From positions 1-38,460 of the IMG/VR virus record IMGVR_UViG_3300008448_000249: a stretch of 38,460 nt of DNA. One strand, 5' to 3'. Below are positions 9,440 to 32,869 of this stretch, piece by piece. Positions within the stretch are counted from its first letter, which is position 1, and each line of letters opens with the position of its first letter. Source of the DNA: a virus. The notes below the pieces were generated by a model. The model was not told where the DNA came from. It saw only the letters and a list, made by a program, of their open reading frames with translations, and searched no databases. A program made the translations under genes and the position numbers.

Positions 9440-10247
9440 TAAATACAAATTTACCGTACCTGGTGTTAATCAAACTTTAACCATACCGATAGAAATGAAT
9501 TGGGATTTCTACGGTCGAGATGATAGTATTGAGGTATATCAAGATGAGGTTATTAAAGTTATTGCAGGTATACCTGAAGATTTTGAAGTAATTAGATTTG
9601 GTCACGAAAGTTATGGAAATAATGAAAAAACCGAACTAAAATATGATTTTTATTTCTACTCAGGGGTACCCACAAATGTGACCTCTTCAACAGTAAATAA
9701 TTGGGTCGTTGATTATATACCTGAAGGGTTTACATCACTTGATTTATTCTATAGGACTAAACCATTTGTAAAATCATTTTTTAAATTAGATTTTTATAAT
9801 TCACCAAATGGTGTTAATCAAACAAACTCATTCACGGTAATTTTACCTGTTTATAAATGTAATACGATTGTTACGGATATATCATCAACAATTCAAGATG
9901 TTAAGATTAATATTCCAAGATATACTATGGATTATATAAGTTCATCAACAACGTCATCAACTAATGAAGGGTTTTTTCTTTATTGGTTAAAGTCTAGAAC
10001 ATTTGTTAATCTTGATACTTTTTATATGTCTGTTAAGTTTTTTGACGCAAAACAAGGAATATACGTTAGGATGATGACGGTACCACAATCATCACTACCT
10101 AATAAGTTCGTATTTGATAATGAGAATTTTTTCTATAATAAAGTTGTTTTAGATTACACAAATAAAACCTATAAAATATTTGATTATTTGGGTAATAGGT
10201 TGGGGGTTAATACTCCCATAAAATGGTATGAATATGTTAACCCATAA
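9432..10247 (+). CDS. Putative structural protein (271 aa), GTG start
   Basis: Unrecognised. The start is GTG at 9432, overlapping the end of the preceding gene by 8 nt. No ATG lies at the beginning of the frame, and the good N-terminal sequence (NNKYKFTVPGVNQTLTIPIE) begins immediately after the GTG. The protein is acidic and rich in beta-prone and aromatic residues, with WDFYGRDDSIEVYQDEVIKV near the N-terminus. Its stop overlaps the next ATG as TAATG. The gene is embedded in a tightly coupled run of tail genes, so a virion structural role is likely, but no specific family can be named. Confidence 0.5.
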   Translation: MNNKYKFTVPGVNQTLTIPIEMNWDFYGRDDSIEVYQDEVIKVIAGIPEDFEVIRFGHESYGNNEKTELKYDFYFYSGVPTNVTSSTVNNWVVDYIPEGFTSLDLFYRTKPFVKSFFKLDFYNSPNGVNQTNSFTVILPVYKCNTIVTDISSTIQDVKINIPRYTMDYISSSTTSSTNEGFFLYWLKSRTFVNLDTFYMSVKFFDAKQGIYVRMMTVPQSSLPNKFVFDNENFFYNKVVLDYTNKTYKIFDYLGNRLGVNTPIKWYEYVNP

Positions 10248-11425
10248 TGGATGATAGAATATATAACATAAGAATATCTCCAGAAGTAATTAAGGGGGAT
10301 ATATTTAAAGTCGATTACACAGGGGCCTCGTATAATGACGAGTTTCAAGTTGAGGTTTGTTGTGATATTATTACAAGTGCGGTAACAAAATATTACACAG
10401 GTCAAACCTATGTTTATTCATCAATGACTCAGGTTTTATCAGGTGGTACTAATGGTACTTCATTGTTAACAGGGTTAACTATACCAATTCTATTAACAGA
10501 AACTTGTACAGATATTGGTTACTATTCGGCATTTGATGGCGCGGTTTTACAAAAAGATGTTGTAAATAATTTCATATTTTCATCTTCGACACTAAACCCG
10601 TATCAATATTATTTTTATAATACATCTGATTATAAAAATTTAGGGTACTTACAGTTTTCGACGTATCATGTAGATTGGGGGGACGGTATTACTGAAAATG
10701 TAACTAGTTTTGCACCTAATTATAATACACATACTTATCCCCAAAATGGTAAATATACCATAACGGTTTCGGGTGTTACACCATGGGGTAACAATATAAT
10801 CAAAAAAGAAATATCTGTACCATATACTGATATAACAATAGATGACCCAAACGGTACTGCTTACTTTGTACCTGCGGGTGGTAATTGGTCGGCAACACCA
10901 ATTAGCTATGATTACATTTATAGTGGGGACTCAAATTGTGATTTGGATATTTATAATTTTTCAGGTTCACCTAATATAATATCAGGGTATACTACTTCAA
11001 ATGTAACTGCTTTACAAGTTTATGGTCCTACAAGTGGTTTATTTGCAGGGTCTTACTTAAAAGGTGTCCCTGTTACAGGTACTTCAGGTACTATTGGAAC
11101 ATTTTGGGGAACGGGTCAAACCACTCCTAATGTTATTTATACTGCGTATACCATAAATGACATTGATTATTATGATTATAATAATGGGACTACAGTTTTT
11201 GTTGTTGAATCTTCAGGAATCACATCTGAAAATATTGTTTGTTCGGCATTAACTAAAAACGAAGTTTTATTAAATGTTATTGATGAGGCTGAGGTACAGA
11301 GTAATGTGTTTATTGATAGAGGTAAACTTAGTGCTTATGAACGTGTATTAAGATTAAACGAAGTTAACACTATAGGTGAATTGGAAAGATATGGTTATGG
11401 ATTCTTTAATGTAATTAATGACTAA
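10247..11425 (+). CDS. Putative tail protein with PKD-like domain (392 aa)
   Basis: Translation is probably coupled to the upstream gene through a TAATG overlap. The recognisable part is residues about 135-190: VDWGDGITENVT, then HTYPQNGKYTITVSG. This is the signature of PKD (polycystic kidney disease) domains, WGDG followed by H-x-Y-x-x-x-G-x-Y-x-(I/V). PKD domains are immunoglobulin-like modules common in secreted and adhesive proteins and in phage tails, usually binding carbohydrate or acting as spacers. The flanking sequence is beta-rich with no assigned family. The C-terminal 70 residues contain a helical segment (LSAYERVLRLNEVNTIGELE). A receptor-contact or spacer role is inference. Confidence 0.6.
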   Translation: MDDRIYNIRISPEVIKGDIFKVDYTGASYNDEFQVEVCCDIITSAVTKYYTGQTYVYSSMTQVLSGGTNGTSLLTGLTIPILLTETCTDIGYYSAFDGAVLQKDVVNNFIFSSSTLNPYQYYFYNTSDYKNLGYLQFSTYHVDWGDGITENVTSFAPNYNTHTYPQNGKYTITVSGVTPWGNNIIKKEISVPYTDITIDDPNGTAYFVPAGGNWSATPISYDYIYSGDSNCDLDIYNFSGSPNIISGYTTSNVTALQVYGPTSGLFAGSYLKGVPVTGTSGTIGTFWGTGQTTPNVIYTAYTINDIDYYDYNNGTTVFVVESSGITSENIVCSALTKNEVLLNVIDEAEVQSNVFIDRGKLSAYERVLRLNEVNTIGELERYGYGFFNVIND

Positions 11426-11443
11426 ATAAAAACTTAAAATTGA

Positions 11444-11450
11444 TATTTAT
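11444..11450 (+). promoter_or_regulatory. TATTTAT motif upstream of the 304-aa gene
   Basis: TATTTAT begins 20 nt before the ATG at 11464 in the 38-bp gap after the PKD-like gene. The context GATATTTATTAAA is nearly the same as upstream of the minus-strand gene at 23835. Confidence 0.4.
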
Positions 11451-11463
11451 TAAATAAAGAAAT

Positions 11464-12378
11464 ATGGCAACAGGAACATATGGTACAATAAGACCCGCTG
11501 ACGTTTCACCTGAAGATGTTGAAATAATTTTAAATTATACACCATCTAGAGATGAAACGGATAATTTTGTTTTAACTAAATTAGACGCTCAAACAGTATT
11601 AAGACCTTATTTTAACAATTCATCAACTGCGAATGTTAATAACCCCAATGTTGAGATACTTGGTGGTTTATATAATCTAACACTACCTTCTGATGTGTTT
11701 AATAAAATAGGTATTTACACATTATATATTAGACCTGCATTAATAAGAACAACGATACTTGATTGTGGTGTGTTATCTGCATTACCTAATGTTAAAGGAA
11801 TTGTGATTGATTTAAATGCGGTTCCAAATCAATATAGAAACAAATTTGTTAACCAAGGGTTAGTTGGGTTTAGAATCGAGTATTTAAACTCTGATGGAAC
11901 CAAAATACCTAATTTTTTTAGATTAATTACCTCATCTTTCTTTTGTGAACCTGTTGTTCAAAATTTAACAAATACGTCTCAAAAGGCTATACGATATAGA
12001 TATACTGATACAAATACTAATTTAATATTTTGTACATTATCACCATCATCGGCACCGACTAACAAACCTAACTCAACACCGTTTATTGGACAACCTGACC
12101 AAGATATTATTATAACTAACACATTTTTTAACCCAATTACTTTAGACATTGAATTAGCGGAACACGACTTCTCAACATTGGCGATTGCTCTTTATGGTAA
12201 CCAAAGTAAATCTATGGATGATGGTATTTACACACTTTATGACAACAACAATAACATCTACAAACAATACAACCTTTATGAGATTAGAGACCAATTTAAT
12301 AACCTACTTTATGAAATTAGAGAGGATAGAGGTGATAATATTGATTTCAGTAAAAACTTTACAAACATAACACAATAA
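11464..12378 (+). CDS. Putative structural protein (304 aa)
   Basis: Unrecognised. It opens MATGTYGTIRPADVSPEDVE and appears mostly beta-structured, with segments such as VEILGGLYNLTLPSDVF and IYTLYIRPALI that resemble strands of an Ig-like sandwich. The C-terminal 60 residues contain repeated Tyr/Asn/Glu segments (YNLYEIRDQFNNLLYEIRED), probably a helix or coiled region. The stop overlaps the next start as TAATG. It begins after a short intergenic gap with its own promoter-like motif, so it may start a sub-operon together with the tail-protein-I-like gene. A tail or baseplate role is inferred from context only. Confidence 0.5.
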   Translation: MATGTYGTIRPADVSPEDVEIILNYTPSRDETDNFVLTKLDAQTVLRPYFNNSSTANVNNPNVEILGGLYNLTLPSDVFNKIGIYTLYIRPALIRTTILDCGVLSALPNVKGIVIDLNAVPNQYRNKFVNQGLVGFRIEYLNSDGTKIPNFFRLITSSFFCEPVVQNLTNTSQKAIRYRYTDTNTNLIFCTLSPSSAPTNKPNSTPFIGQPDQDIIITNTFFNPITLDIELAEHDFSTLAIALYGNQSKSMDDGIYTLYDNNNNIYKQYNLYEIRDQFNNLLYEIREDRGDNIDFSKNFTNITQ

Positions 12379-15300: not shown

Positions 15301-15737
15301 ATTGTCCAACACAATCAACCGAATGTCCAATATACCCTTGGGATACAAATCCTAAAATACAAGATTATAGTGGTATTTTGGGGTACTTATTAAATCAATA
15401 TTTAACATCTAACGGATATACTTTAAACGATTGTTTACTTAATACTTTAAATACCGAATGGTTTATTGATATTAGACGTGATGATGTTATGATTATAAAA
15501 ACATCTTTCTTTACGGGTGTTGGTCTAACAACTCCTAATTTTAGTTACCCAACAACTAACACACCTTGGTTATCGGTATTAAATACATCGTTAGAAAAGT
15601 TGAAGGAGTATGGGTATGATTATACATTAACGGAAGATGATACGGTTGTTATTTACAACAGTATCTGTTCTGAAAATGATGAAGGTGTGAATATAAAGAT
15701 TAATGTCGGAATAAATTTCAATATTTTATGTAATTAA
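12378..15737 (+). CDS. Large tail protein with P2-I / TIGR02242-like module (1119 aa)
   Basis: Residues about 350-480 follow the order of the tail-protein-I family: a helical segment (DETKKFIDALAYMNSVNYNV), then LLKNLAQTLGWR, then RNVVLNSAYLFKSKGTRKSI leading into a short IETLMALIGAP. In that family the 'L-x-x-L-A-x-x-L-G-W' and 'a-x-L-(Y/F)-x-x-K-G-T' motifs mark a baseplate component at the sheath-baseplate junction. Here the module sits inside a much larger protein. It has about 350 N-terminal residues of unknown fold, a middle beta domain (about 700-800), and a C-terminal part with an aromatic helix (GSYWIRLVEQMIPASTIW) and a Cys-rich segment (CRPCTLNTNIFPIDC). It starts within a TAATG overlap and ends in another. 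Confidence 0.65.
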   Translation: MAIKKYTCPPQTATGGGTFSDDLVGFQLVQGGGLTQGNFEFTQSVTEKTNRTYSTGVFSNPINLDGLGVGSVDQSKIIFQNNFKVYPNFDLSQITNFTLYGSMVKRISTSVEKIINYFPGGLESTSFAPDYTTGVTADNIVYDKVSNTTSLDLNLSRLRNPFGIDFTVNSTRNLQLREIPVSKLRNFTIEYHNYSLYINENGYTVNRVVPTESLVSGTLTIVVDGDPFSGNSFSYTSFVVRPNDREVNKVFNEDFDEVENFLLNRNVSPKYSATFKVPQMGEDGTYYIESKIVTWPKTTLWNIDIITPNFTKYLVTLNEISESFDGYKTNLISRFLTTGALNEFDTIDHKVEKVLQIYGRSFDETKKFIDALAYMNSVNYNVGNDIPSQLLKNLAQTLGWRTNMSPISNEELLNSVFGQKNAEKSAFSGVDNVLTPDELNYQFYRNVVLNSAYLFKSKGTRKSIETLMALIGAPQALVEFNEHVYLADQKINLGQFESKFASISGGTYLVDTPVLDPTYTFTIMGVTYTGYTTQNTILDVNVNREDYPMDELGYPSAPPDTEDYYFQKGSGWFEQTPDHRALEQIKLTGSVFTGANTNVQTSLEPYSYGQVYLDRFRKFPFMDLGYKLKISVDNNKSWTDNEVGVRTNLDGKYNAKYYTTNDKLVLNVKNIDLFLNPGQGIAYDIWYMSREYNYPIPNQGMNYIPPTTLTFNLNATYESGSVVATYDAVINVPSTFEVKIDFKNTLGVNVGNSIEIVDTIVIPSGSTSGSTQVTLPDTFTNLNLTSTFSDIKITPDNITYGVAANPVFKTTPTETVLPTQFYNIIPKDIYPSKGGVDWTEINPQPKSQTFFEFAQNFWLNMINVRDRQFGGSKNVGYPTLSSIFFKYLESQKNIGVENSNFSYDKMIEYVNGMGSYWIRLVEQMIPASTIWNTGVKYENSIFHRQKFSWRRQRGCEFVPVPCRPCTLNTNIFPIDCPTQSTECPIYPWDTNPKIQDYSGILGYLLNQYLTSNGYTLNDCLLNTLNTEWFIDIRRDDVMIIKTSFFTGVGLTTPNFSYPTTNTPWLSVLNTSLEKLKEYGYDYTLTEDDTVVIYNSICSENDEGVNIKINVGINFNILCN

Positions 15738-17878
15738 TGGCTTGTAATTTATCATATAGTTTAGCGGTCACAGGTGATTGTGGTAATCAAAATATAGGTG
15801 CGTTTAATTTGGATATCTTTGGAGATTCTCCTGATTTTGCAATACAATGGATTGACCCCGCGTCTTTTGGTTCTATAAGTTTGGACCCAGGGGTTACAGA
15901 CTATGGACTTACAAATTTAAGTGCGGGTACCTACACATTTGATTTAATTGATAGTTGTGTACCTGTAAACACCATACAAACAATAAACGTTACAATTTCA
16001 AGTGGGACATGTGTTTCCATTACAGGATATCAACGAACACTTTGTGGTGAAAATAATGGTTCTATTACTGCGACCACAAACAATTATTACGACGTTTCGT
16101 CATTTGAATTGTACGATATTGAGACAGGATATATAACATCAGGAACAAGTTTTGATGGTAGTTATGTCTTTAATAATTTAAGCGCTAGTACTTATTATGT
16201 TATTTCTGATGATGGTGGAGGTTGTGAGGGTCAAAGTGAAAGTGTTATAATTTATTCATCAGAAACTATTGATTATGGTTTTTTAATTGTAAATGACGCA
16301 GGTTGTACGGTTAATTCAGGTAAGGTATTCATAACAGGATTGACGGGTAATCCACCTTATACATACTTATGGACTAATGGTCAAACAACTAGTAGTATCA
16401 CAGGTTTAACTGCTGGATTTTATACAGTGACTGTAACGGATAGTACGGGTTGTCAGATTAGTAAAGATGCGTATGTTGCGACAGTATATCCTGTTGGAAT
16501 TGCGTCCATAATAACTAAAGACCCTAGTTGTTATAGTTCTGATGGTGAATTTACTGTGTATATTACAGGCGGTACTGCACCATACAACTATTCAGCTTCT
16601 ACTTTAGGTAATAACTTTTCATTTGATGATAGTTTCACATTTACAAATGTTTCAAGTGGCAATTACAATATCGCTATTACCGATGCAGGTCTTTGTACTG
16701 CGTTAGGGTCAATTACGTTAACAACACCTGGAGGTTTAAATGTTTCATCGTTAAGTTATTCACCTTCAGTCTGTGGAGCGTCAGGATTTGTTAATTTTAC
16801 ATTAAATGGTGGTTCACCACCCTATGTTTACACTTTAACTAAAACAGGGGGTGCGACAACGGTACAAAATACTAATAGCCCAAGTTGGGCGTTTAATAAT
16901 TTATTATTTGGTGAATATACATTAAATATCAAAGATAACGGTCCTTGTGAATATACTGAGACATTTACTATAGAAAATGATAATTCGTTTTCATTAAGTG
17001 CTAGTACTACAGGAACAACTTGTGGTTTAGAGAATGGTGTTGTTGAATTAAACGTGTCAGGAGGTAGTCCATCTTATACTTACACATTAGATGAGACCAT
17101 TATAGATATAAGTCCACTAAGTTCAATAACGGTTAATAATTTAACATCAGGATTTCATCAATTTACAGTTACGGATAACAATAATTGTGTACAGGAACTT
17201 TTATTTGAAATAGACCCTTCAGAGGGTGTTGATTTCTTATTAACATCGACTGACTCGACAAATGGTAGTAATGGTACTGTTAACGCATATGTAACAAGTG
17301 GTGAACCCCCATTTACATTAGAATGGTCAACAAATGTTAATGGTCAAACAGGATACTCTATGACTAATTTATCTGCGGGGACTTATACCTTGAAAATAAC
17401 GGATGACACGGGTTGTGAAAAAATTAGGTCTGTCGTGGTTGACGGTATTGTAGTTCAAACGTCATACCAAGTTTATAGTGTTTGTGATTCTGATTTAACT
17501 AATTCAGGGTTATTATTAACTAAAGGACCTAAACAAATGTTATTGGAAGGTTTCTATGAGTTGAATGTTGGTAATACAAATTGTGTATTAAATGAGGCTA
17601 TTTTTGAAGCGTCGGTAACCGTTAGTGGGGAGACTAAAACTGAGGATTTTTACACAGGTAACACATTAAGTGAATATCCAACGATTGAGGAGTGGTCTAA
17701 CGTGATAGAATCCTTATTACTAAGTTATGAAGGTATCGGAAGTGTTACGTTTGACATTGAAAATAACTCAATGTCTGTTAGTACTGATTGTAATTCCGAA
17801 GTTTCATTTAATGATGCTGGTATTGTAATTAATATGATTATTTATTACGATATATCATGTGTTGCTTGTGACATTTAA
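15737..17878 (+). CDS. SprB-repeat-like adhesin / tail protein (713 aa)
   Basis: The protein consists of about seven modules of 75-90 residues. Each has the SprB-repeat pattern: a Cys near the start, a G-x-(V/I) strand, a GG(T/S)xPPYxY turn, an N-(L/V)-(T/S)-x-G-x-Y strand and a VTDxxxC ending. Clear examples are GNPPYTYLWTNGQTTSSITG with AGFYTVTVTDSTGC, and GGTAPYNYSAS, GGSPPYVYTL and GGSPSYTYTL. SprB repeats are known from the mobile gliding adhesin of Flavobacterium and other Bacteroidetes surface proteins. The last 150 residues (from about 565) form a different Cys-containing domain. There is no signal peptide, consistent with a virion protein made in the cytoplasm. The gene starts by a TAATG overlap with the tail-I-like gene, so it is probably mounted on the tail as a receptor-binding or decoration protein. 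Confidence 0.75.
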   Translation: MACNLSYSLAVTGDCGNQNIGAFNLDIFGDSPDFAIQWIDPASFGSISLDPGVTDYGLTNLSAGTYTFDLIDSCVPVNTIQTINVTISSGTCVSITGYQRTLCGENNGSITATTNNYYDVSSFELYDIETGYITSGTSFDGSYVFNNLSASTYYVISDDGGGCEGQSESVIIYSSETIDYGFLIVNDAGCTVNSGKVFITGLTGNPPYTYLWTNGQTTSSITGLTAGFYTVTVTDSTGCQISKDAYVATVYPVGIASIITKDPSCYSSDGEFTVYITGGTAPYNYSASTLGNNFSFDDSFTFTNVSSGNYNIAITDAGLCTALGSITLTTPGGLNVSSLSYSPSVCGASGFVNFTLNGGSPPYVYTLTKTGGATTVQNTNSPSWAFNNLLFGEYTLNIKDNGPCEYTETFTIENDNSFSLSASTTGTTCGLENGVVELNVSGGSPSYTYTLDETIIDISPLSSITVNNLTSGFHQFTVTDNNNCVQELLFEIDPSEGVDFLLTSTDSTNGSNGTVNAYVTSGEPPFTLEWSTNVNGQTGYSMTNLSAGTYTLKITDDTGCEKIRSVVVDGIVVQTSYQVYSVCDSDLTNSGLLLTKGPKQMLLEGFYELNVGNTNCVLNEAIFEASVTVSGETKTEDFYTGNTLSEYPTIEEWSNVIESLLLSYEGIGSVTFDIENNSMSVSTDCNSEVSFNDAGIVINMIIYYDISCVACDI

Positions 17879-17925: not shown

Positions 17926-18909
17926 ATGGATAATTTAGTTTTTGTTACCGCACAACCTGATGTGGCTTATTTTCATTGGCAAGTTGAGATATATGTTCAC
18001 AATTTTATTGAGAAAGGTATTAACCCAAATGATATACATGTGATTTTCGCCATGGTTCATGGTAAAAAAAATCCTAGTGATGAATCATTAAAATTAAGAG
18101 ATTATGGTATAAATGTACACCATTATTCTGATGACAGAACAAGTAAACATTATATACCAAATATTAAACCATTTCTAATATATAAATGGTTGGAACAATA
18201 TCCTGAATTTGGAAAGGCGTTTTTCTTACACGACGCTGATATTATATTTAGAGAACTACCTGATTTTAAAAAGTTAATGAAAGATGATGTCACATATCTT
18301 TCCGATACAATAGGGTATATTGGATATAGATATATAATGGACTGTTGTGAACGATATGAGAAACAACACCTTAATTCTGAGAAAGGTCAATTATTACAAG
18401 AAATGGCCGATGTTGTTGGGGTTGACGTTGAAACAATTAAATCTAATCAAGAAAATTCAGGGGGTGGACAATATATTATTAAGAATACTAACTCAGAAAT
18501 TTGGGAAAAAATTTACAATGATTGTACACCACTATATGACCAAATGTTAGATTATCAAAAACGTTTCCCAATAAACCCAGGACAGATACAATTTTGGACG
18601 GCAGAAATGTGGTCGGTATTATGGAACCTGTGGTACTTCAACAAAGAAACTAAAATCACTGACGAACTTAATTTTTCTTGGGCTACTGATAAAATTAGTG
18701 TTTATGAAACTAAACCAATTTTACATATGGCTGGTGTCACCCAAGATTTAAAAAATACTAAATTTTTCAAAGGAGATTACATACAATCTAACCCATTAAT
18801 AAAGTTGGAACAGAACCCTAATTTCTTTGATTACATTGAGAAAGATAGTTCGACAATAAAATATATTGAAGTTATGAAGTCATTACTAAATAAAAAACTA
18901 AATAACTGA
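17926..18909 (+). CDS. GT-A-type glycosyltransferase-like protein
   Basis: A 327-aa soluble protein. It begins with a strand (NLVFVTAQPD) followed by HWQVEIYVHNF. Near residues 98-108 it has AFFLHDADIIF, an aspartate pair (D103-A-D105) after a hydrophobic strand, as in the metal- and nucleotide-sugar-binding DxD motif of GT-A glycosyltransferases. Further blocks are SGGGQYIIKN (about 183-192) and PILHMAGVT (about 262). The overall pattern recalls the hydroxyproline/serine O-glycosyltransferase (HPAT/SGT) type, but that is recognition by eye. It is the only apparent enzyme inside the structural block, placed between two SprB-like adhesin genes, and has no signal peptide or membrane anchor. Possible substrates are the Thr/Pro-rich virion proteins encoded nearby; a host glycan or DNA base cannot be excluded. 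Confidence 0.6.
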   Translation: MDNLVFVTAQPDVAYFHWQVEIYVHNFIEKGINPNDIHVIFAMVHGKKNPSDESLKLRDYGINVHHYSDDRTSKHYIPNIKPFLIYKWLEQYPEFGKAFFLHDADIIFRELPDFKKLMKDDVTYLSDTIGYIGYRYIMDCCERYEKQHLNSEKGQLLQEMADVVGVDVETIKSNQENSGGGQYIIKNTNSEIWEKIYNDCTPLYDQMLDYQKRFPINPGQIQFWTAEMWSVLWNLWYFNKETKITDELNFSWATDKISVYETKPILHMAGVTQDLKNTKFFKGDYIQSNPLIKLEQNPNFFDYIEKDSSTIKYIEVMKSLLNKKLNN

Positions 18910-18910
18910 T

Positions 18911-18917
18911 TATTTAT
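18911..18917 (+). promoter_or_regulatory. TATTTAT motif upstream of the 497-aa gene
   Basis: TATTTAT immediately follows the glycosyltransferase stop codon, begins 23 nt before the ATG at 18934, and is followed by ATAAAAAA. Confidence 0.4.
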
Positions 18918-18933
18918 ATAAAAAACGAATATA

Positions 18934-20427
18934 ATGCCTGAATATAACGAGTGTGAACCTATAGTGATTTATCCACTTGGGGTGACGTGTCAATCAACGA
19001 ACCCTAGTAGTGTGACGGCATCGGATGGTGTTGCATCATTAATTATTACGGGAGGCACACCACCTTATAGTATTTTGTGGGGTAATGGTAGTAAAACTAA
19101 TAGTATATCGAATCTATCTGTTGGTTCGTATCCTGTTACTGTAACTGATTATTTTGGTGATTTTACTGCGAATACAACTTGTGTATTAACAGTTGTTGAA
19201 CCTACTTTACCACCTGAACCTACACCGACACCACCACCTGTGATAACTTATGATTTATGTATGGTTATAAATTATTTTAACCCAACAACGGGGATTAATG
19301 TTCTTGAAAGTGTACATTTTAACCCTAATGGCGTTGTAAATAATAAACAAAGTTGGATATCGGATGATGAGAATTATACCATTACTTGGAACTCATCACA
19401 AAATTTATGGCAAGTTAATGACTATGGTCAAGTGATAGTCAATTCAAATCCTGCGTATCCACCAATTAATAATTGGAATATATTGGGTAAAAAAGGTAGT
19501 GTAACTGTTAGTGAAGGTGAATGTGAAAATGTTGATAACCTTTCATTAAATGTTAGTTACAATGCGACAACATGTACGAGTTGTGATGGTACTATAACTT
19601 TAGTTGGTGTTGGAGGAACACCACCGTATCAGTATTCGATTAATGGTGGATTAACATGGTCAACAAATGGGATATTCCAAGGGTTATGTCCTGATATTAC
19701 ATATTCAATAAAAGTAAAAGATTCAACTGATACTATATATACACCAAATGTTAATAATACAATATTATTCCCTAGTGTCCCTACAACAACTTATACGGTT
19801 ACATTAAATAATACTTATATTAACTTATCAAGTACGTCATATCAAATTAATTATACGATTAATGTTACACCACCATTACCTGCTGGTGTAACGCTAAATT
19901 TTGATTTGGAATTACAAGACATGTTCCAAAGAACTCCGTATATTAATTCGGCGAATGCTACGTACACAACATCGGTTATTAAAAATGGTGTTCCAATTAC
20001 AACATATATTAATGATGTTAACGATACAACGGTACCTAATGTTAGTGTAGGTTGTACTAATTATCTATTATATAGAAGTTACTATAAACATACTTACGAA
20101 TCATTAACGTTAACTTCGACGGATAGTTATGTTATAACTGCTATTAGTTCTTATCAAAAAACTTGTAATAATACACCACCATCAATGGAGATAAATTATA
20201 ATAATACACCTGAACCAACACCAACACCTGTTTATGTCGGTGAGGTAGAAGAATATAACGGAGGTCCTGGACCTATGGCTTATGGCACGTCCACAGGGGT
20301 TGGAATTCAAGGGTCAACCTGTTGTACCGCAGGATTTAATCAAAGAAGTGGGGCACTTACTAAAACAACATTAAGTGGATGTCAATGTTGTAATGTAACT
20401 GGTGAATATTTTATCAACAGAACTTAA
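18934..20427 (+). CDS. SprB-like adhesin / tail protein with Thr-Pro linkers (497 aa)
   Basis: The first 85 residues form one SprB-like module (CQSTNPSSVTASDGVASLII, then GGTPPYSILWGNGSKTNSIS and VGSYPVTVTDYFG). Then comes a Pro/Thr linker, PEPTPTPPP. A second SprB-like module follows at about residues 205-265 (CTSCDGTITLVGVGGTPPYQ and YSIKVKDS). After a beta-rich domain there is another linker, PEPTPTP, and a Gly/Cys-rich C-terminal region (GPGPMAYGTSTGVGIQGS, then CC and CQCC). Together with the 713-aa protein this makes two SprB-type genes flanking the glycosyltransferase. Probably a virion adhesin or fibre; the receptor is unknown. Confidence 0.65.
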   Translation: MPEYNECEPIVIYPLGVTCQSTNPSSVTASDGVASLIITGGTPPYSILWGNGSKTNSISNLSVGSYPVTVTDYFGDFTANTTCVLTVVEPTLPPEPTPTPPPVITYDLCMVINYFNPTTGINVLESVHFNPNGVVNNKQSWISDDENYTITWNSSQNLWQVNDYGQVIVNSNPAYPPINNWNILGKKGSVTVSEGECENVDNLSLNVSYNATTCTSCDGTITLVGVGGTPPYQYSINGGLTWSTNGIFQGLCPDITYSIKVKDSTDTIYTPNVNNTILFPSVPTTTYTVTLNNTYINLSSTSYQINYTINVTPPLPAGVTLNFDLELQDMFQRTPYINSANATYTTSVIKNGVPITTYINDVNDTTVPNVSVGCTNYLLYRSYYKHTYESLTLTSTDSYVITAISSYQKTCNNTPPSMEINYNNTPEPTPTPVYVGEVEEYNGGPGPMAYGTSTGVGIQGSTCCTAGFNQRSGALTKTTLSGCQCCNVTGEYFINRT

Positions 20428-20464
20428 TTAAAAAGAAATTTTATAAAAAAGAAAACAACATAAA

Positions 20465-22918
20465 ATGAGTTATATATTAAAAAATACATCGGCATTAATT
20501 AACAGTAGATTAACTGATACTGGTAGAGAAAAACTATCACAAGGTAATTTTAATATTTCATATTTCCAAATCGGAGATAGTGAAGTATCTTACAATGTTT
20601 TACCCGCATCGTATAATCAATCTAATACCATGATATTAGAACCATCATTTAATGCGCAAAACTCAAGTGGTGTCCCACAGTCAAACAAACAAAACGTAAA
20701 ATATCCTTATTATGTCGATACCGTTTCAGGTAACACGTATGGTATTCCATTTATGGATTCAATTGACACTGCGGTGTTTAACAGAGCGGCACCAAGAGGG
20801 TTTTTTACAGGTGTAACTATTAATGATTTTACGTATTGGAGTGCTTTTACTGACAACAAACATGTTATTAATTCTAACTATATGGTTGATATGTCAACTG
20901 TTACAGGTGGTACTGTGATTGATGTTGTCTATTCGGGGTGTAACACATCTATAGCGAGACTACCACAAATTGGAGATTTTATTACGATTTATTATGACGG
21001 TAGAGCTAAAGATGATTGTAATTGTGGTACGGTAACACCGACACCAACACCTACCCCCACTGAGACACCAACTGAAACCCCAACACCTACGGAGACATTA
21101 CCATGTGAAACTCCAACCGCAACACCGACACCTACATTCCCAACGCCGACACCAACTGTTCCTGAGACCGTTTGTCTTATGGAAATGTTTAGTTGTTATC
21201 CAATTTTAACCTATAGGATTTTGGATGTTTGTAATGGACAAATAACATTAGATAGACCAACACCTGATTTCTCATATTTAATGGGGCCGTGTTTTGCAAG
21301 AACATTAGTTTACCCACCTAACATGACTGGGTTATTTGATAGTATAACACCTTTAAGTCACTACAACACCGATGTTATTAATTTTGAATCGTTATGTAAT
21401 AGTGATGAGATTGATGTTAAGATATGGAATATGAATATTCCTTGGTCTGAAGATTTGGCGGGATTAGATAATAATACTTATAAAGGATTTTCAGGTTTTG
21501 GTTCAACACATTATATTGGAACAAAAGAATATTTAGGATATCAATCAAGTTCAGGTCAAACGTTCTTTTTGGATAATTCATTAAGTGCTGAAACTACTGA
21601 TACGTATTATTATAATTCTTTTGGTGAAGTTGTTAAAGTTGAACCTGAAGAACAAAAGGCTATCGCAATAATTCATTATACTAATCAAACCATTGATTTC
21701 TATTACGGTGAAAAATTCGCATTAGAACCATTAGACGATACATTACCTGAAGACACGTTAGGACAAGCGAGAAACTTTAAAATTAGTTTACCTACTTTAA
21801 TGTGGCATAAAAACCCTGACTGTTGTCAAGGTCAAACATTTTGGGTTGACCCACCTGGGTTTGAAGAATTTAATTTATTTGATGTTAAATACCTTCAATC
21901 AACTAAAAATCAAGATATGAACTCACCTGGTATTAGGTATTATCATTTATGGGATAATAACCCTAATCCAACATTAAATGGTGTGCCAAATAGAGTTGGT
22001 AAAGTATTCCCTGACCATAAAATTGTTATCTTTGATGATGAGGAGATAGTTGCAGCTTTATCTTATAAATCAAATCGAAATTGGACGTTACCTGCACCTA
22101 AATTAGCGTTATCCACACCAAACACTTGTGGACCATTAAATCAATCAACAGAGGGTGTTTTAACGGGGGCTAATGAGTATATGTACGTTACTTATAGATT
22201 TAGTAATGATTTAAGTTTCACTAATTCATTACACTGTAATTATTATGGTAAAATTGAAGGTCCTAATGTTAGTTGTGTTGATATCGGTTCTCAAAACGTT
22301 TCAGTAAGATTTGGTGGTGATTTAGGTTGCTTGAATTTTTTAAGTGAAAGTCCTGTAGTAACAACTACAACAACAATATGTCCTGATTTATGTGATATTA
22401 CAACGGGTTATTTTGGTGAGAGATTTGAAATTATCTGTCAAAAAGTAACAGGTAATGGTAGACCTGAACCTACTGAATGGAAAATAATTGACTATACGGA
22501 TGAATTATCTGCATCAACAATTAACGGTAACATTACAAATAGTGGTATGACAGGTACGACTTTTGTAATAACTAAAAATTTATATGATTCGGCACCTTAT
22601 TATGATTTAAGTGATTATATTGATTTAACTAGTAATGGTGACACGGGACAACAACTTAATTTTGGTGATGAATTTTATTTCTATGGTGTGGTTGAAACTG
22701 ATATTCAGGCAACAATCTATGAAATGAGATATAAGGTTAACTTAGGAGATGCTGAATTCCAAAAAAGTTCAAACCCTGGGTGGTCTTTAGGTGTCCCACC
22801 ATATATTACGGAAATTGGTCTTTACGATTCAAATAAAGACCTTATGATTATATCAAAACTGCAGTCACCTGTTCCAAGACAGGGTATACAACAGTTTTTG
22901 ATAAAATTTGATTTCTAA
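20465..22918 (+). CDS. Tail/baseplate protein with internal Thr-Pro-Glu linker (817 aa)
   Basis: The N-terminus, LKNTSALINSRLTDTGREKL followed by SQGNFNISYFQIGDSEV, looks like a conserved attachment domain, with the small-protein pattern 'T-D-x-G-R-x-x-L-s-x-G' seen in phage tail proteins. Residues about 191-234 (21035-21166) are a Thr-Pro-rich linker ([18 protein letters not shown]) of the same kind as in the giant minus-strand protein. A large beta domain follows, with CCQGQTFWVDPPGFEEF and a poly-Thr run (VVTTTTTIC). No enzymatic motif was seen. This is the last structural gene of the plus-strand block. Its end overlaps the frame of the RuvC-like gene by a few codons, but that gene most likely starts 5 nt later. 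Confidence 0.6.
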   Translation: MSYILKNTSALINSRLTDTGREKLSQGNFNISYFQIGDSEVSYNVLPASYNQSNTMILEPSFNAQNSSGVPQSNKQNVKYPYYVDTVSGNTYGIPFMDSIDTAVFNRAAPRGFFTGVTINDFTYWSAFTDNKHVINSNYMVDMSTVTGGTVIDVVYSGCNTSIARLPQIGDFITIYYDGRAKDDCNCGTVTPTPTPTPTETPTETPTPTETLPCETPTATPTPTFPTPTPTVPETVCLMEMFSCYPILTYRILDVCNGQITLDRPTPDFSYLMGPCFARTLVYPPNMTGLFDSITPLSHYNTDVINFESLCNSDEIDVKIWNMNIPWSEDLAGLDNNTYKGFSGFGSTHYIGTKEYLGYQSSSGQTFFLDNSLSAETTDTYYYNSFGEVVKVEPEEQKAIAIIHYTNQTIDFYYGEKFALEPLDDTLPEDTLGQARNFKISLPTLMWHKNPDCCQGQTFWVDPPGFEEFNLFDVKYLQSTKNQDMNSPGIRYYHLWDNNPNPTLNGVPNRVGKVFPDHKIVIFDDEEIVAALSYKSNRNWTLPAPKLALSTPNTCGPLNQSTEGVLTGANEYMYVTYRFSNDLSFTNSLHCNYYGKIEGPNVSCVDIGSQNVSVRFGGDLGCLNFLSESPVVTTTTTICPDLCDITTGYFGERFEIICQKVTGNGRPEPTEWKIIDYTDELSASTINGNITNSGMTGTTFVITKNLYDSAPYYDLSDYIDLTSNGDTGQQLNFGDEFYFYGVVETDIQATIYEMRYKVNLGDAEFQKSSNPGWSLGVPPYITEIGLYDSNKDLMIISKLQSPVPRQGIQQFLIKFDF

Positions 22919-22922
22919 ACAT

Positions 22923-23531
22923 ATGAGTAGAACTTTAAAAGAAAGTCCAAAAGTACTTGGACTTGACGTTTCAACAAGAACTATCGGATGGGCACTTTTT
23001 GATATACAAAGTAAGGAATTATTGGAATTAACACATATTTCACCAAGACCTAAGACTAAAGAAAACCCTGAAGAGAGTAAAATTAAAGAACTATTACTTA
23101 AAGCTGATATTTTTAAAACTAAACTCAATGAGTATAAAAATTTAGGTATTGTTAGGGTTATTATAGAAGAACCTCTTTTGAACTCTAACAATATCAATAC
23201 AGTACAAACGTTGATGAGGTTTAATAGTTTTATCTGTAAAGAAATTTATCAAATATTGGGTATAGTACCCGAATTCATTTCAACATATAATTCAAGAAAA
23301 TTTGCTTTTCCTGAATTGGTTCAAAAAAACGATAAAGGTAAGTTTGTTTTATTTGGTGGTTTACCGAAAGATATTGATAAAAAGATGATTATTTGGGAAA
23401 AAGTCGCTAAAAGGGAACCACAGATTCAGTGGTTATATACAAAAAATAACACACTTAAAAAAGAAAATTTTGACCAAACAGATGCTTATTGTTGTGTTCT
23501 TGGTTTTATGAACCAACTTGAAATTTGGTAA
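22923..23531 (+). CDS. RuvC-like Holliday junction resolvase / RNase H-fold nuclease
   Basis: A 202-aa protein with the RuvC/RNase H-fold active site. KVLGLDVSTRTIGWALFD (Asp15) is the first beta-strand with the metal-binding Asp. VIIEEPLL (Glu82/Glu83) is the second acidic position. FDQTDAYCCVLG (Asp184/Asp187) is the C-terminal Asp on a helix. RuvC-class enzymes cut four-way DNA junctions; in phages they resolve branched replication intermediates before packaging. I chose ATG at 22923; an in-frame TTG at 22908 would add five residues with no recognisable content and overlap the previous gene. It is the last gene before the convergent terminator and follows tail genes rather than replication genes. 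Confidence 0.8.
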   Translation: MSRTLKESPKVLGLDVSTRTIGWALFDIQSKELLELTHISPRPKTKENPEESKIKELLLKADIFKTKLNEYKNLGIVRVIIEEPLLNSNNINTVQTLMRFNSFICKEIYQILGIVPEFISTYNSRKFAFPELVQKNDKGKFVLFGGLPKDIDKKMIIWEKVAKREPQIQWLYTKNNTLKKENFDQTDAYCCVLGFMNQLEIW

Positions 23532-23851: not shown

Positions 23852-26800
23852 TTATAGACCAAATCTACCTCTATTGAAATTAAAGTTTTGTACGACCTCT
23901 GTTGCCGTTAATTCTGTATTATAAATTCTTAGAATACTTAAACCACCTTGATAAAATTCTGATGGGTTACCTCCTGTAGAATATCTACCAAAAGCAAGTC
24001 CATCATTTAATGGTGGTGATTGATTTAAACCTGACCCTGAGGCTGATTGAACTTGAAGCACACCATTAATATAAATTTTAACTGATGTTGATGTATGTAC
24101 GGTAACAATTTGATACCATGCGTTATCAATAATTGAGGTTGTGGTGTTAATACCGACAGTGGAAGTACCATTCCAATATAATGCTTGAATTTGTCCTCCT
24201 ACTAAAATTCTTTGTCTAAAACCTTGGTTATTTGATTTATTTACCAATTGTTTATTTGACCCACCATTAACGTTAGTTGGTTTAACCCAAACCTCACAAC
24301 TTACAGTGTTAGTTATTGCTGATAATGCTGAGTTTTGTATTGAAAGTGAGTATTCGCTTGCCCCATCAAAATCCATAACACCAAACGGGGATGCGGTGAA
24401 TATTGGTGTACCCACTAACGTAGATGTGATATTATCATTAGTTATGTCATTAACTAATGTTCCTGTTCCAGAGTATGATGATGTGTTATTGTAATCATAA
24501 TAAATTAATAAATTCCTAGTTACTAATGTAGGTGTAGGTGTAGGAGTTTTTGTTGGTGTTTGACTTGGTGTTAAACTTCTTGTTGGTGTTGGGGTAGGTG
24601 TTGGACACACACCGCCAATACAGCTACTACCACGAGTTGCGGTAAAGTTGTTAGCTGGGTCACTATTAATATATGATGATGAACATATTTTTGTTGTCCC
24701 AGGTGTTATACCTGTATTAACTAAAGTACCACTACAGTTATAGTAATTATAAAAATAAATGTCAAACCCATTGTTAACAATATCCCAACAGTAACAATTA
24801 CCACAGTATAAACACGAACCGTTTGGGGTCACTTCACCAAAACCTGATGTTATAACAGGAAAAGTTGTTGAACACACTTGGGTTTCTGATATTCCAAAAA
24901 AACCTGAATTTAACGTAACAGGTGATGTGTTAATATTTGTACAACAAGGTGTAAATGTATATGTTGATGGACCATCAAATGGGTCACCTGTATTGGTTAA
25001 TGTGTAACTTATACAATTACTTGTTGGTGTTGGTGTTAATGTTGGTGTTAATGTTTGAGTAGGTGTTTGAGTAGGTGTTGGTGTAGGACATACACCACCA
25101 ATACATGAACCTAATCTATTAAATCCACCATCAACTGATGCGATAGTACTTGATGAACAAACTTTAACATTTGAAGAAGGGGTGCTAACGGTTTGTGTGT
25201 TTCCTGAACAGTCGATATATGTGTAATAATATTCTATAAATGGAGACCCTATTAATTCAAAACAATAACATTGACCACAATATTCACAACTACCTGCGGC
25301 AGTAACACTAGCGGCCCCCGCACCTGAATTTGTAACAACAGGAACTGTAGATGAACATACTTGGTATATACCTGTATCAAACCAAGCTAAATTTAATGGT
25401 GATGTGTTAACATTTGTACAACAAGGTGTAAATGATACACTTGAACTACCAATTCTACCACCTGTGTAATCAATATTGTAAGTAATACAAGTACTTGTTG
25501 GTGTAGGTGTTTTAGTCGGTGTCATTGTAGGTGTCATTGTAGGGGTCTTTGTTTGGGTAGGCGTTTGATTTGGTGTAGGACAAATACTTGATGTGCTTAC
25601 CGAACCAAATCCCATATACTGCCAATTTTGACCATTTAAATCACCTCTCCAAACTTGACTTGTATATGATGATAATTGAGAAACATCAGATGCGTTATAA
25701 GGACCAACACGACCTCTCAGTGTTGCGGTTGGTTTAGTTACCACTTCTAACCATTGGTATGTGTTATCTCTATAGAAATTACCAATCCATGAAGTTGGTA
25801 CTGAAATCGCGTTAAATGTCCCACCATATACTAAAATTTTTGCATAATATCTATTAAATCCGTCGGTTCCTGTTTGATAATATAAGTTTTGAATATCACC
25901 ATCCGAGTTAGTAGCACCACCTGGGTTTAACCAATTGTCACCAGGGTTAGCACACATAAGTGCTGGGTTTGCCAAATCTGATGGTTGACTATATATTTCT
26001 GTTCTACCTGTTGTTATAGTGAAATAACCATTTGTTGAAACGTATAATAAATTTGATAATTGTCCGTTTGTTGCGAATGTTGTTGGTAGAGTTATTGGGG
26101 TTGTCGTATACCCATCGTCAAAAGTTGGAGAACCATTAATATCAATAAACCCACCACTATATAGAGTATATCCCACAGTTGTTGATGGCCAAATTAAACC
26201 AACATTTGGACAAAATGAGTAATTTGCAACAGTTTGAGTTGGTGTTTGTGTTTGAGTTGGTGTTTGAGTCGGTGTTGGTGTTTTTGTAGGTGTTACAGTT
26301 TTAGTTGGTGTGTTTGTTGGCGTTAAAGTATTAGTTGCGGTTCTTGTTGGTGTTAAAGTATTGGTTGGCGTTTTTGTGTTTGTTGGTGTATTGGATGGTG
26401 TTTTTGTGTTTGTTGGTGTATTGGTTGGTGTTTTTGTTGGTGTATTGGTTGGTGTTAACGTTTTTGTTGGAGTGTTAGTTGGAGTGTTAGTTGGAGTGTT
26501 AGTTGGAGTGTTAGTATTTGTTGGTGTTTGTGTTGGTGTTTGGGTGTTACTTGGTGTTACAACAGGTCCACAAGTATTTACTGTTATTGGTTCATTAATT
26601 TGTGTTGGTCCAGCATAAATTAAATCACCGTTACTACGTTTAACTCTAACAAATAACACATTAGAGTGACAACCACCATCAAATAGGTCATAACAAGTAC
26701 AGTTAACATCGTTTGCACAATAATTGGTGATACCACATTGAGGTGCGAATGTTATAATTGGACTACCAACTGTTGAGGCTAATTGAGCAGCTTGTGATTG

Positions 26801-29800
26801 ACTTATAGTTATTTTACTATAACGTGAAAAACTACTACCTGCCCAAACACCACCTGTTAATGGTGCTGGGGTGTTATCATAGTCACCACAAACGAATGTT
26901 CCCGACGTTGTTGTAATACCATTTAATGTACCATCATTATTGTTTAATACGGCTTCACCTAATAAAATAGTTGTTCCTGTAACATAATACTCAAAAAGGG
27001 CTGAGTTACATTGGTGATAACTAACAAATCCTTCTAAACCTAAATTTTGCCAATCTGAAGGTAATAACGCAACATCAGAAACATCTCTTAAATATAAAGA
27101 TTCAATAGTTAAACCTTGGAAACAATATGAGGTACTTGTTGGTGTTGGGGTTAAAGTATTTGTCGGTGTTTTTGTTGGGGTTAAAGTATTTGTCGGTGTT
27201 TTTGTTGCGGTATTTGTAGGTGTATTAGTTGGTGTGCTTGTTAATGTTCTTGTTGGTGTAACAGTTTTTGTTGGTGTGCTTGTAGGTGTTTTTGTTGGCG
27301 TTTGGGTTGCGGTGTTAGTTGGTGTTGGTGTTGGTGTTGCGGTACTATCGGTACAAATAATTAAACTAAAACTTGTTATAGAACCACCACCACCTGGTGA
27401 GAAATCCTCAATATATAATTTCCAAACACCATTAGTTTGAGGTGGTTGGTAACCATCAAATACAGTGAATTCAGGTGAATTACCTGTAGTAAACTGAGGT
27501 AATGGACATGGAGGATTAAATAACATTGTATTACCAACAATTGAATTGTTTTTATAGAATCCACTTGAGAAACCATCCCATTCAATAGGACCATAACTTG
27601 TTAAAGATACATTAATATTATTGGCGTCATTAATACCCCCAATTCTACCTGCGATAAATGTGTAGTTAGTATTATTAGGGTCTAATAAAACCATCCCAAC
27701 GTCACCTGCATCAATTATCGTGTAACCATTAATTAGGAATTTAACATCGGTTATTGGTGTGTTAATACCTGACACTGTAAATGTGACAGGGTAAACTGAT
27801 GCTTGGTTATTATCATTAATTATGATATTTGTTTGGTCTGAATTAAATGTATAACAATTTTGATTTGGGGTTGGTGTTTGTGTTGGCGTAGGTGTTTTTG
27901 TGTTTGTTGCGGTGTTAGTTGGTGTTTTTGTGTTTGTTGCGGTGTTAGTTGGTGTTTTTGTTATTGTGTTAGTTGGTGTTGGTGTTTGGGTTGGTGTTTG
28001 AGTCGGTGTTGGTGTTGGAGGTATATTAAAGTGAGTATTTAAACAACTTGGTACTTGAGATGCGCCATACACTGAATATCCTGTACTACCTGTTAAAGTT
28101 ATTACGTATGGGTAATCTTTATTAATGTGGAAAACATTATTAATGTTATTCCCGTCCATAATATAAATCTGATTGTTGTCTTGAAAAACACCCCATGGTG
28201 CACTAATTGTAGGACTTATTAAAATATCGACTTCAACGGAACCTGTAATATAATCATATTGTGTAATATATCTACCACTTGGACCATTATTTGTAATTAA
28301 TACCTTATTCGTTGTCGTTAGTAAGATATCACCAGCGACTGACCTACCTGATAACATATTAAATTTATACGTTGAAACCGCAGGTGATGATGTTATGTCC
28401 AAAGTAACGACTGAATTAGGTGATGTTGTTGAATTAACGGCGATTAAAGTTGTGTCATTTATCGCTCCTAATCCAGGACCTATACTGTGTGGTAATGTTA
28501 TTGTTCTATTTAATGTTGCACTAAATGGTGTTAAGGTTATATTCCATTCTGTTAATGAAGTACCACCACCTAACCACAATTTATTAGTAGTATGAGCGAT
28601 ATCTGATGCTGAATATGAACTTGGAACATTTAATGGTGTTGTGATATTAGTTAAAACATCATAAAAGAACACATAAGGAGTGTCAGGTGAATTAAATAAT
28701 ACTGAACAAGTAGGTACTATTGGTGCGGATGTTGGGGTTATTGTTTGCGTTGGTGTTTGTGTTATTGTTTGCGTTGGTGTTTTTGTTGGGGTTAGTGTTC
28801 GTGTTGGCGTGTTAGTCGGTGTTTGTGTTTTTGTTGGGGTTTTAGTTGGCGTGTTAGTCGGTGTTTGTGTATTAGTTAGTGTATTAGTTGGTGTATTAGT
28901 TGGTGTGTTAGTCGGTGTTACAGTGTTAGTTGGCGTATTAGTTGGTGTCTGAGTACTGGTACTTGTATTTGTTGGTGTATTTGTAGGTGTTTTTGTTGGT
29001 GTTAAAGTTTTAGTTATGGTATTAGTTGGTGTATTTGTCTGTGTATTTGTAGGGGTTTGAGTATTAGTAGGTGTGTTAGTAGGTGTTTGAGTATTAGTAA
29101 GTGTGTTAGTCGGTGTATTGGTTGGTGTATTAGTTGAAGTTTTAGTTGGTGTAGGTGTTTTAGTCGGAGTGTTAGTTGAGGTATTAGTTGGTGTGTTAGT
29201 TGGGGTTAAAGTATTTGTAGGTGTGTTAGTTGGGGTTAAAGTGTTGGTTGGGGTATTCGTAGGAGTATTCGTAGGGGTAATTGTTTGTGTTTTTGTTGGT
29301 GTTGGAGTAGGAAAACCAAATGGGGTTTTTGTCGGTGTGACAGTTTTTGTTGGTGTATTTGTTGGTGTGACAGTTTTTGTTGGTGTATTTGTTGGTGTAT
29401 TTGTTGGTGTGACAGTTTTTGTTGGAGTATTGGTTATGGTGTTAGTTGGGGTTGAAGTATTAGTTGGGGTATTTGTTGATGTATTGGTCGGTGTGTTAGT
29501 AGGAGTTTGAGTGATTGTTTGAGTATTAGTTACGGTGTTAGTAGGTGTGTTGGTTAGGGTATTAGTCGGGGTGTTAGTTGGGGTTATAGTATTTGTGTTT
29601 GTTGGTGTTAAGGTATTAGTAGGGGTGTTAGTAATTGTATTAGTAGGGGTGTTAGTTGGGGTTGAAGTATTAGTCGGAGTGTTAGTAGGCGTTTGAGTAC
29701 TTGTATTAGTTGGTGTTGGGGTATTGGTTGGAGTATTAGTTGGCGTTTTAGTTGGTGTAACTGTTTTAGTTGGGGTGTTAGTCGGAGTGTTGGTTGGTGT

Positions 29801-32800: not shown

Positions 32801-32869
32801 GACATCACAAACATATATTTGATACGGGGGATTTACCCCCGTTATATTTGAAATTTCAATTGAAGTCAT
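23852..32869 (-). CDS. Giant modular fibre/adhesin with Thr-X stalks (3005 aa)
   Basis: Architecture read from the translation: 1-75, a small beta module ([14 protein letters not shown]) like the 71-aa protein upstream; 79-173, a Thr-Pro/Asn linker; 173-248, a Cys-containing module ([13 protein letters not shown]); 249-1381, an enormous Thr-X tract with Thr at nearly every second residue; 1381-1616, a propeller-like domain ([25 protein letters not shown]); 1669-1843, a domain like the proprotein-convertase P domain ([20 protein letters not shown] then FSLIIC); 1914-2105 and 2212-2430, unknown beta domains; 2460-2596 and 2618-2756, two paralogous Cys-rich modules (FTPCCTN, YCGQCYC / YCGNCYC); 2784-3005, a C-terminal LamG/concanavalin-like domain ([18 protein letters not shown]-type strands, [20 protein letters not shown]). 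Short Thr-Pro linkers separate the modules. There is no signal peptide. The layout suggests a long flexible virion fibre carrying several binding domains. Confidence 0.7.
30111..30326 (-). repeat. Two tandem copies of a 108-nt unit in the Thr-X tract
   Basis: 30111-30218 and 30219-30326 are nearly identical over 108 nt (36 codons), with only a handful of substitutions. This is a large in-frame duplication inside the tract. Confidence 0.8.
31251..31358 (-). repeat. Three tandem copies of a 36-nt unit in the Thr-X tract
   Basis: Units at 31251-31286, 31287-31322 and 31323-31358 are identical except for the last base of the third. A degenerate partial fourth copy follows. The unit encodes 12 residues, so copy changes keep the frame. 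Confidence 0.85.
31372..31467 (-). repeat. Two tandem copies of a 48-nt unit in the Thr-X tract
   Basis: 31372-31419 and 31420-31467 are identical over 48 nt, equal to 16 codons. This is a recent in-frame duplication next to the 36-nt array. Confidence 0.85.

Follow-up and report, generated by a model that had tools for sequence, protein, structure and literature searches.

A putative virus-encoded O-glycosyltransferase associated with Thr-rich virion tails

Results

The locus and its gene neighbourhood

The window (the whole 38,460-nucleotide stretch that was analysed, positions 1 to 38,460 of IMG/VR virus record IMGVR_UViG_3300008448_000249) contains, at 17926-18909 on the plus strand, an intact open reading frame with an ATG start. 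Its 327-residue product, referred to here as the GT protein, matches the PHROGs v4 profile phrog_4417 with an E-value of 5.6e-75 over 314 residues (6-319). The family is labelled as of unknown function in PHROGs v4, and in some records it appears as “prophage pi2 protein 34”; searches with the GT sequence against Pfam, NCBIfam and the sequences of the PDB gave no match. An HDAD motif occupies residues 102-105, giving a DxD pair at D103 and D105, and the protein has a C-terminal HxxG motif (H267, G270) which we take to resemble that of GT8.

The gene is real and conserved, and is not a chance reading frame. Relatives are encoded by at least 207 stretches in IMG/VR, the best 80 of which are 67-87% identical, and an alignment of 52 GT sequences has about 110 invariant columns, within which lie the motifs HDxD, SDT, SGGGQY, QFWTAEMW, SWATD and LHMAGV. 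When the comparison is extended to 42 members reaching down to 25% identity, D103, D105, S126, G180, Q222, W224, M228, H267, G270 and K282 are conserved in 100% of them; the invariance of the DxD, H267, G270, Q222, W224, M228 and K282 is the pattern expected of an active enzyme. The gene is carried by 74 INPHARED records, mostly within the head-tail operon, from phages of Lactobacillus, Enterococcus, Staphylococcus, Lactococcus, Arcanobacterium and Chryseobacterium. A scan of genome contigs returned a single match, at 27% identity, at 1643-2584 of the Geobacter MAG contig DIUB01000007.1, where the relative directly follows an open reading frame with a poly-Thr tract; this contig is probably a phage or prophage fragment.

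Upstream of the GT gene lies a plus-strand gene for an SprB-repeat adhesin-like protein (15737-17878; Pfam SprB E 1.7e-14, and synteny), homologues of which bear Thr-Pro tracts in other genomes. Directly downstream is an SprB-like protein on the same strand (18934-20427), a candidate acceptor by synteny whose Pfam SprB match (E 8e-6) falls just under the cut-off. Its homologues contain poly-Thr, and at the site of its short Pro/Thr linker PTLPPEPTPTPPP (19200-19238) close relatives have poly-Thr, for example PTTTTTTTTSP in the relative L007. There follows, again on the plus strand, a virion protein with a central Thr-Pro tract (20465-22918), another candidate acceptor by tract scan and synteny, whose Thr-Pro/Thr-Glu tract at 21029-21139 corresponds to poly-Thr at the same site in close relatives. 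The conserved end of this GT cassette is a plus-strand gene for a RuvC-like Holliday-junction resolvase (22908-23531; PHROG E 1.3e-5, and synteny), which is probably outside the mechanism considered below.

Two further Thr-bearing genes lie on the minus strand. The protein encoded at 23852-32869 has 3005 residues, of which 31% are Thr, and is the candidate main acceptor; its main stalk (28727-32122) is an almost continuous alternating Thr-X tract in three runs of 527, 406 and 194 residues, and a weak laminin-G-like domain at its C-terminus (Pfam E 0.0054) suggests that the very long stalk may be tipped by a head that binds a receptor. The virion protein at 35154-36449 has three short Thr-Pro tracts (35220-35267, 35586-35633 and 35685-35738). 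In the four window proteins scanned, strictly alternating T-x tracts comprise 1589 residues, with 795 Thr and no Asp. These counts bear out two statements of an earlier, sequence-only reading of the window, namely that it encodes hundreds of regularly spaced Thr residues and that the tracts contain no Asp and hence no Bacteroidetes glycosylation sequon. That reading also called the GT gene the sole gene of enzyme-like character in 22 kb, which is correct as far as 22.9 kb, the point at which the RuvC-like gene is reached, and of the two flanking SprB-like adhesins which it proposed, the upstream one stands while the downstream one is more weakly matched.

Predicted fold and enzyme class

An AlphaFold2 model of the GT protein, computed from the alignment, has a pLDDT of 93.5 and a pTM of 0.92. 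The matches listed when the model was compared with the PDB by Foldseek are all GT-A enzymes (E 1e-7 to 1e-5) and include UGGT catalytic domains, glycogenin, xyloside xylosyltransferase and LgtC. VIA-align places glycogenin first (Z 16.0, rmsd 3.4, 227 residues, 10% identity), and the top solved structural matches are all GT-A enzymes with Z of 13-16; the nearest solved folds are those of glycogenin/GT8, UGGT and LgtC, with GlyE also among the GT8-like neighbours. The DxD directly follows the strand formed by residues 98-101 of the model. The protein is, as modelled, a probable GT-A-fold glycosyltransferase. The sequence-only reading had proposed a soluble GT-A-like protein with a DAD motif, to be examined by structure prediction, and both the position of the HDAD motif and the fold obtained by these three methods are in accord with it.

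The Pfam Glyco_transf_8 model gave no match up to E 10 with any of nine phrog_4417 members, and since no Pfam family, GT8 included, is recognized from sequence, the fold is described here as GT8-type while the protein is not filed as GT8. What it shares with glycogenin and CAZy GT8, and with UGGT (GT24), LgtC and GlyE, is the GT-A fold and the DxD. The identity to glycogenin, an enzyme which glucosylates its own Tyr, is only about 10%. GT-A enzymes that act on extended Pro-rich glycoproteins are known from plants and algae (HPAT and peptidyl-Ser galactosyltransferase, GT95/GT96); these families gave no Pfam match to the GT protein, and none is among the PDB structural matches listed. The sequence-only reading had likened the fold to this hydroxyproline/serine O-glycosyltransferase type in particular, a resemblance which these searches did not confirm.

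Co-occurrence of the gene with Thr tails

Thr-rich tails or tracts are present on neighbouring virion proteins in all 18 of the annotated phage regions with the GT gene that were examined, which come from Enterococcus, Lactobacillus, Lactococcus, Staphylococcus, Arcanobacterium and Chryseobacterium phages and extend down to 25% GT identity. The carriers are major capsid proteins (MCPs) in 4995_1 (GTTTTTTKPTTTTTTTQA) and R3.3, major tail proteins (MTPs) in phiFL1A, nattely, VPE25, 1706 and bIL285, and small decoration-like proteins in iLp84, Bacchae and the Staphylococcus phages. The most divergent members are accompanied by periodic tails, TTVAPTTVKP in SAC12B and TTTETQTQTQ in LP65; in the latter, whose GT is 25% identical, the annotation of one tailed neighbour describes it as a virion structural protein by mass spectrometry. 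Throughout the complete genomes of phiFL1A and iLp84, poly-Thr tracts are confined to proteins of the capsid, tail and decoration types.

Four GT-positive records have no tract near the gene (L326-L328 and L338), but each contains poly-Thr runs at other places in its sequence. These distant runs are in frame in all three of the records checked, where we read the open reading frames concerned as virion- or fibre-like. The co-occurrence in relatives which the sequence-only reading had named as a check is found in all 18 annotated regions. Its proposal that the Thr-rich stalks may be modified is supported as far as the Thr tracts are concerned, and must be widened as to the carriers, since in most relatives the candidate acceptors are the C-termini of capsid and tail-tube proteins as much as adhesin stalks.

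A search of the first 50 kb of Lactococcus phage 1706 revealed an additional poly-Thr run in orf3 (L324, 964-1365), a gene annotated as a holin, which is unexpected if the acceptors are virion proteins only.

Joint gain and loss of the gene and the tails

In order to compare closely related phages, IMG/VR was searched with capsid or tail queries trimmed of their Thr tails, and the GT gene and the tail were scored independently. The cleanest case of co-variation is that of the Lactococcus phages CHPC836 and bIL286, whose MCPs are 93% and MTPs 89% identical: the GT gene is present in CHPC836 and absent from bIL286, and poly-Thr ends are found on the MCP and MTP of CHPC836 only. The homologues of the phiFL1A MTP at 100% and 84% identity have the GT gene and tails on both MTP and MCP, and those at 88, 84, 82, 68, 67 and 65% have neither, so that in this phiFL1-type series presence and absence alternate (both at 100%, neither at 88%, both at 84%, neither at 82%), with the same result for the MCPs of these loci. 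Likewise, for the 4995_1 MCP, the GT-positive cluster has the tail and the homologues at 85-86% and 55% have neither.

With homologues clustered at 95% identity and contigs ending right after the capsid gene left out, there are nine clusters with both gene and tail, ten with neither, and none in either discordant class. Fisher's exact probability for this distribution, calculated by hand, is about 1e-5, a figure to be read in the knowledge that related clusters are not independent; many of the counted loci are close kin, and the independent co-variation events amount to about four matched pairs. Neither the GT gene nor Thr tracts are found in phiFL3A, phiFL4A and A2, and bIL286 and bIL309, which are without the gene, have weak scattered Thr-rich stretches only. 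A scan of 14 GT-negative homologue records revealed no poly-Thr runs.

In one Lactobacillus-type locus (L188, about 10000-11900) the capsid gene and the GT gene both look frameshifted, which may mean that the two have decayed together or may stem from errors in the sequence.

Tract exchange in the lineage of the window

Among non-redundant IMG/VR relatives of the window the gene order is GT, 18934-20427 homologue, 20465-22918 homologue and RuvC-like gene unless the contig ends first, and the position of the RuvC-like gene is kept in nearly all of them. Thr tracts surround the GT gene in 50 of the 51 loci of this lineage, the exception being a contig that ends early. Of the GT relatives examined, a truncated one (L040) has no tract, and another (L340) has only a weak one.

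At two fixed protein sites in this lineage, poly-Thr and Thr-Pro tracts interchange. In the 18934-20427 protein the window has VEPTLPPEPTPTPPPVITYDLCMVI where L007 has PVVPTTTTTTTTSPIITYDFCMVI, and in the 20465-22918 protein a 20-residue segment of the window corresponds to TTSTTTTTTTTLSPTTTTSTT in L007. This interchange ties the stalks of the window, with their 795 Thr, to the poly-Thr tails of other phages; as most of the window's tracts alternate Thr with another residue and are not poly-Thr, the putative acceptor in the window is assigned by homology and position.

Thr tracts in phages that lack the gene

The association does not run in both directions. The family is lacking from 73 of 80 IMG/VR loci with the pattern TTTTxPTTTT (L190-L269) and present in the other seven, and it is found in three of 41 larger records. 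The proposition that a Thr tract implies a phrog_4417 GT was rejected on these counts. Poly-Thr tracts are thus commoner than the gene and do not require it, and since most TTTTxPTTTT loci are without it, Thr tracts must also be served by different enzymes or have different roles; other glycosyltransferases may be paired with Thr tracts in the phages that lack this one.

Discussion

Proposed function

Taken together, the sequence comparisons and the model make it highly probable that the gene encodes a putative O-glycosyltransferase which serves the Thr-rich tails of the virus's own virion. The GT-A fold, the co-occurrence with Thr tracts and the matched pairs all favour the self-encoded virion glycosylation suggested by the sequence-only reading. 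The enzyme would be a soluble, cytoplasmic, metal-dependent GT-A protein, active inside the infected cell, with the virion proteins of the same phage as its substrates. The donor is expected to be a host nucleotide-sugar, probably a UDP-sugar, and we infer that the sugar would be O-linked to the hydroxyls of Thr, and probably also of Ser, in disordered Thr-rich tails and linkers. The acceptor tracts would be poly-Thr, Thr-Pro, TTVxP or TTTETQTQTQ repeats, and in the window the proteins likely to be modified are those with Thr-Pro/Thr-Asn stalks at 23852-32869, 35154-36449 and 20465-22918.

Recognition would depend on the low-complexity tract and not on the fold of the protein that carries it, so that one enzyme could serve capsid, tail-tube, Ig-like decoration, fibre or adhesin proteins. 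Such a tract-directed enzyme fits the observations that unrelated carriers share only the tract, that several carriers, some of them not adjacent, accompany a single enzyme, and that the tracts are lost from the carriers where the enzyme is absent. The particle would thereby acquire tails that are mucin-like, stiffer and resistant to proteases, and the phage might benefit through protease resistance, stiffening of the tail or stalk, shielding of the particle or surface binding. It seems rather likely, on a broader view, that Thr-rich tails are a portable glycosylation tag recognized by phrog_4417 whatever the carrier, that enzyme and tag have spread together among phages of Bacillota, Bacteroidota and other groups, and that they are probably the basis of mucin-like coats on virions, the 1,000-residue stalk described here among them.

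Alternative explanations

Phage glycosyltransferases are known that change the serotype of the host (according to a passage in PMC12619734), and LgtC and GlyE are among the GT8-like fold neighbours, so the GT protein might modify the host surface (teichoic acid, LPS or capsule, or a host adhesin) against superinfection, its place in the virion operon being incidental. This is very improbable, because the gene sits in head-tail operons right after capsid and tail-tube genes in phages of unrelated hosts with different envelopes, because it covaries with tails on two virion proteins, and because host modification offers no reason for poly-Thr tails. The same location and co-variation point to virion proteins rather than to phage DNA, whose modified bases many phage glycosyltransferases act upon (Pyle 2024, as cited in a passage of PMC12619734); the complete 38-39 kb genomes of phiFL1A and iLp84 have no annotated base-hypermodification genes, and this substrate appears extremely unlikely.

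Other explanations keep the enzyme on the virion and change its target residues. The gene and the poly-Thr tails could be a co-moving module in which the tails are spacers or assembly handles and the enzyme acts on other virion residues, in keeping with the many phages that have Thr tracts without a phrog_4417 GT and with acceptor sites which are so far predicted only. We give this little credence, since the tails covary on proteins that are not adjacent to the gene (the MTP in CHPC836 and the MCP in phiFL1), the carriers have unrelated folds and the Thr tails as their sole common feature, and the three GT-positive relatives checked in other genomes have tracts away from the gene. Within the lineage of the window, the enzyme might instead modify the adjacent Ig-like SprB folds and not the Thr-rich stalks, as it is encoded directly upstream of the 18934-20427 SprB-like homologue throughout the relatives; this is unlikely, in that the SprB-like neighbours themselves carry poly-Thr or Thr-Pro linkers at fixed sites and the common feature in Gram-positive phages is the Thr tail, not the SprB fold.

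Relation to known systems and implications

General protein O-glycosylation in Bacteroidetes, the likely host bacteria, also modifies Thr and Ser, and it requires a D-(S/T)-(A/I/L/V/M/T) sequon, which the Asp-free window tracts (1589 residues) lack. Phage-encoded enzymes that modify the virion are described for the mycobacteriophages Che8 (gp108-110), Corndog (gp38) and Myrna in passages of PMC12363180 and PMC12619734 (reporting Freeman 2023), which place the glycosylation sites at the C-termini of capsid and tail-tube subunits. The likeness to the present case lies in phage-encoded glycosyltransferases for capsid and tail-tube subunits. The Che8 enzymes, however, belong to other families (GT2-like with a methyltransferase, and GT25-like), and Thr tails are absent from the capsid and tail proteins of Che8, so that the phrog_4417 system would be one in which the enzyme differs and the acceptor is a simple Thr tract. 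Homology of the GT protein to Che8 gp108-110 was considered and rejected (hmmsearch E of 0.5 or worse, hhalign probability below 1%).

No prior report pairing phrog_4417 with polythreonine or glycosylated tails was found in the literature searched, in which subscription papers were mostly not included, and a family formerly without a function is now provided with a fold and an acceptor hypothesis. If the proposal is true, a family that is widespread in phages and annotated as hypothetical gains a function, the poly-Thr ends seen on many capsid and tail proteins of phages are explained, and virion glycosylation arose beyond the mycobacteriophages as well, through a different enzyme and an acceptor that is simple and transferable. 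An O-glycosyltransferase that is directed to tracts and works as a single enzyme would, in addition, be of practical use in the production of mucin-like proteins. The existence of lactococcal laboratory phages that differ in the gene and the tails makes the prediction testable now.

Inversion of the GT cassette

The segment from the GT gene to the RuvC-like gene (equivalent to 17926-23531 of the window) has the opposite orientation to its flanks in 11 of the 51 non-redundant relatives (for example L059, L061, L070, L075 and L078), and the GT tree requires at least four independent flips. The orientation follows clades, and inverted repeats dedicated to the cassette were not observed, which speaks against phase-variable inversion. 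Of the longer inverted repeats that span the cassette in the window, most consist of Thr-Pro codon tracts lying on opposite strands, and these tracts may themselves drive the inversions.
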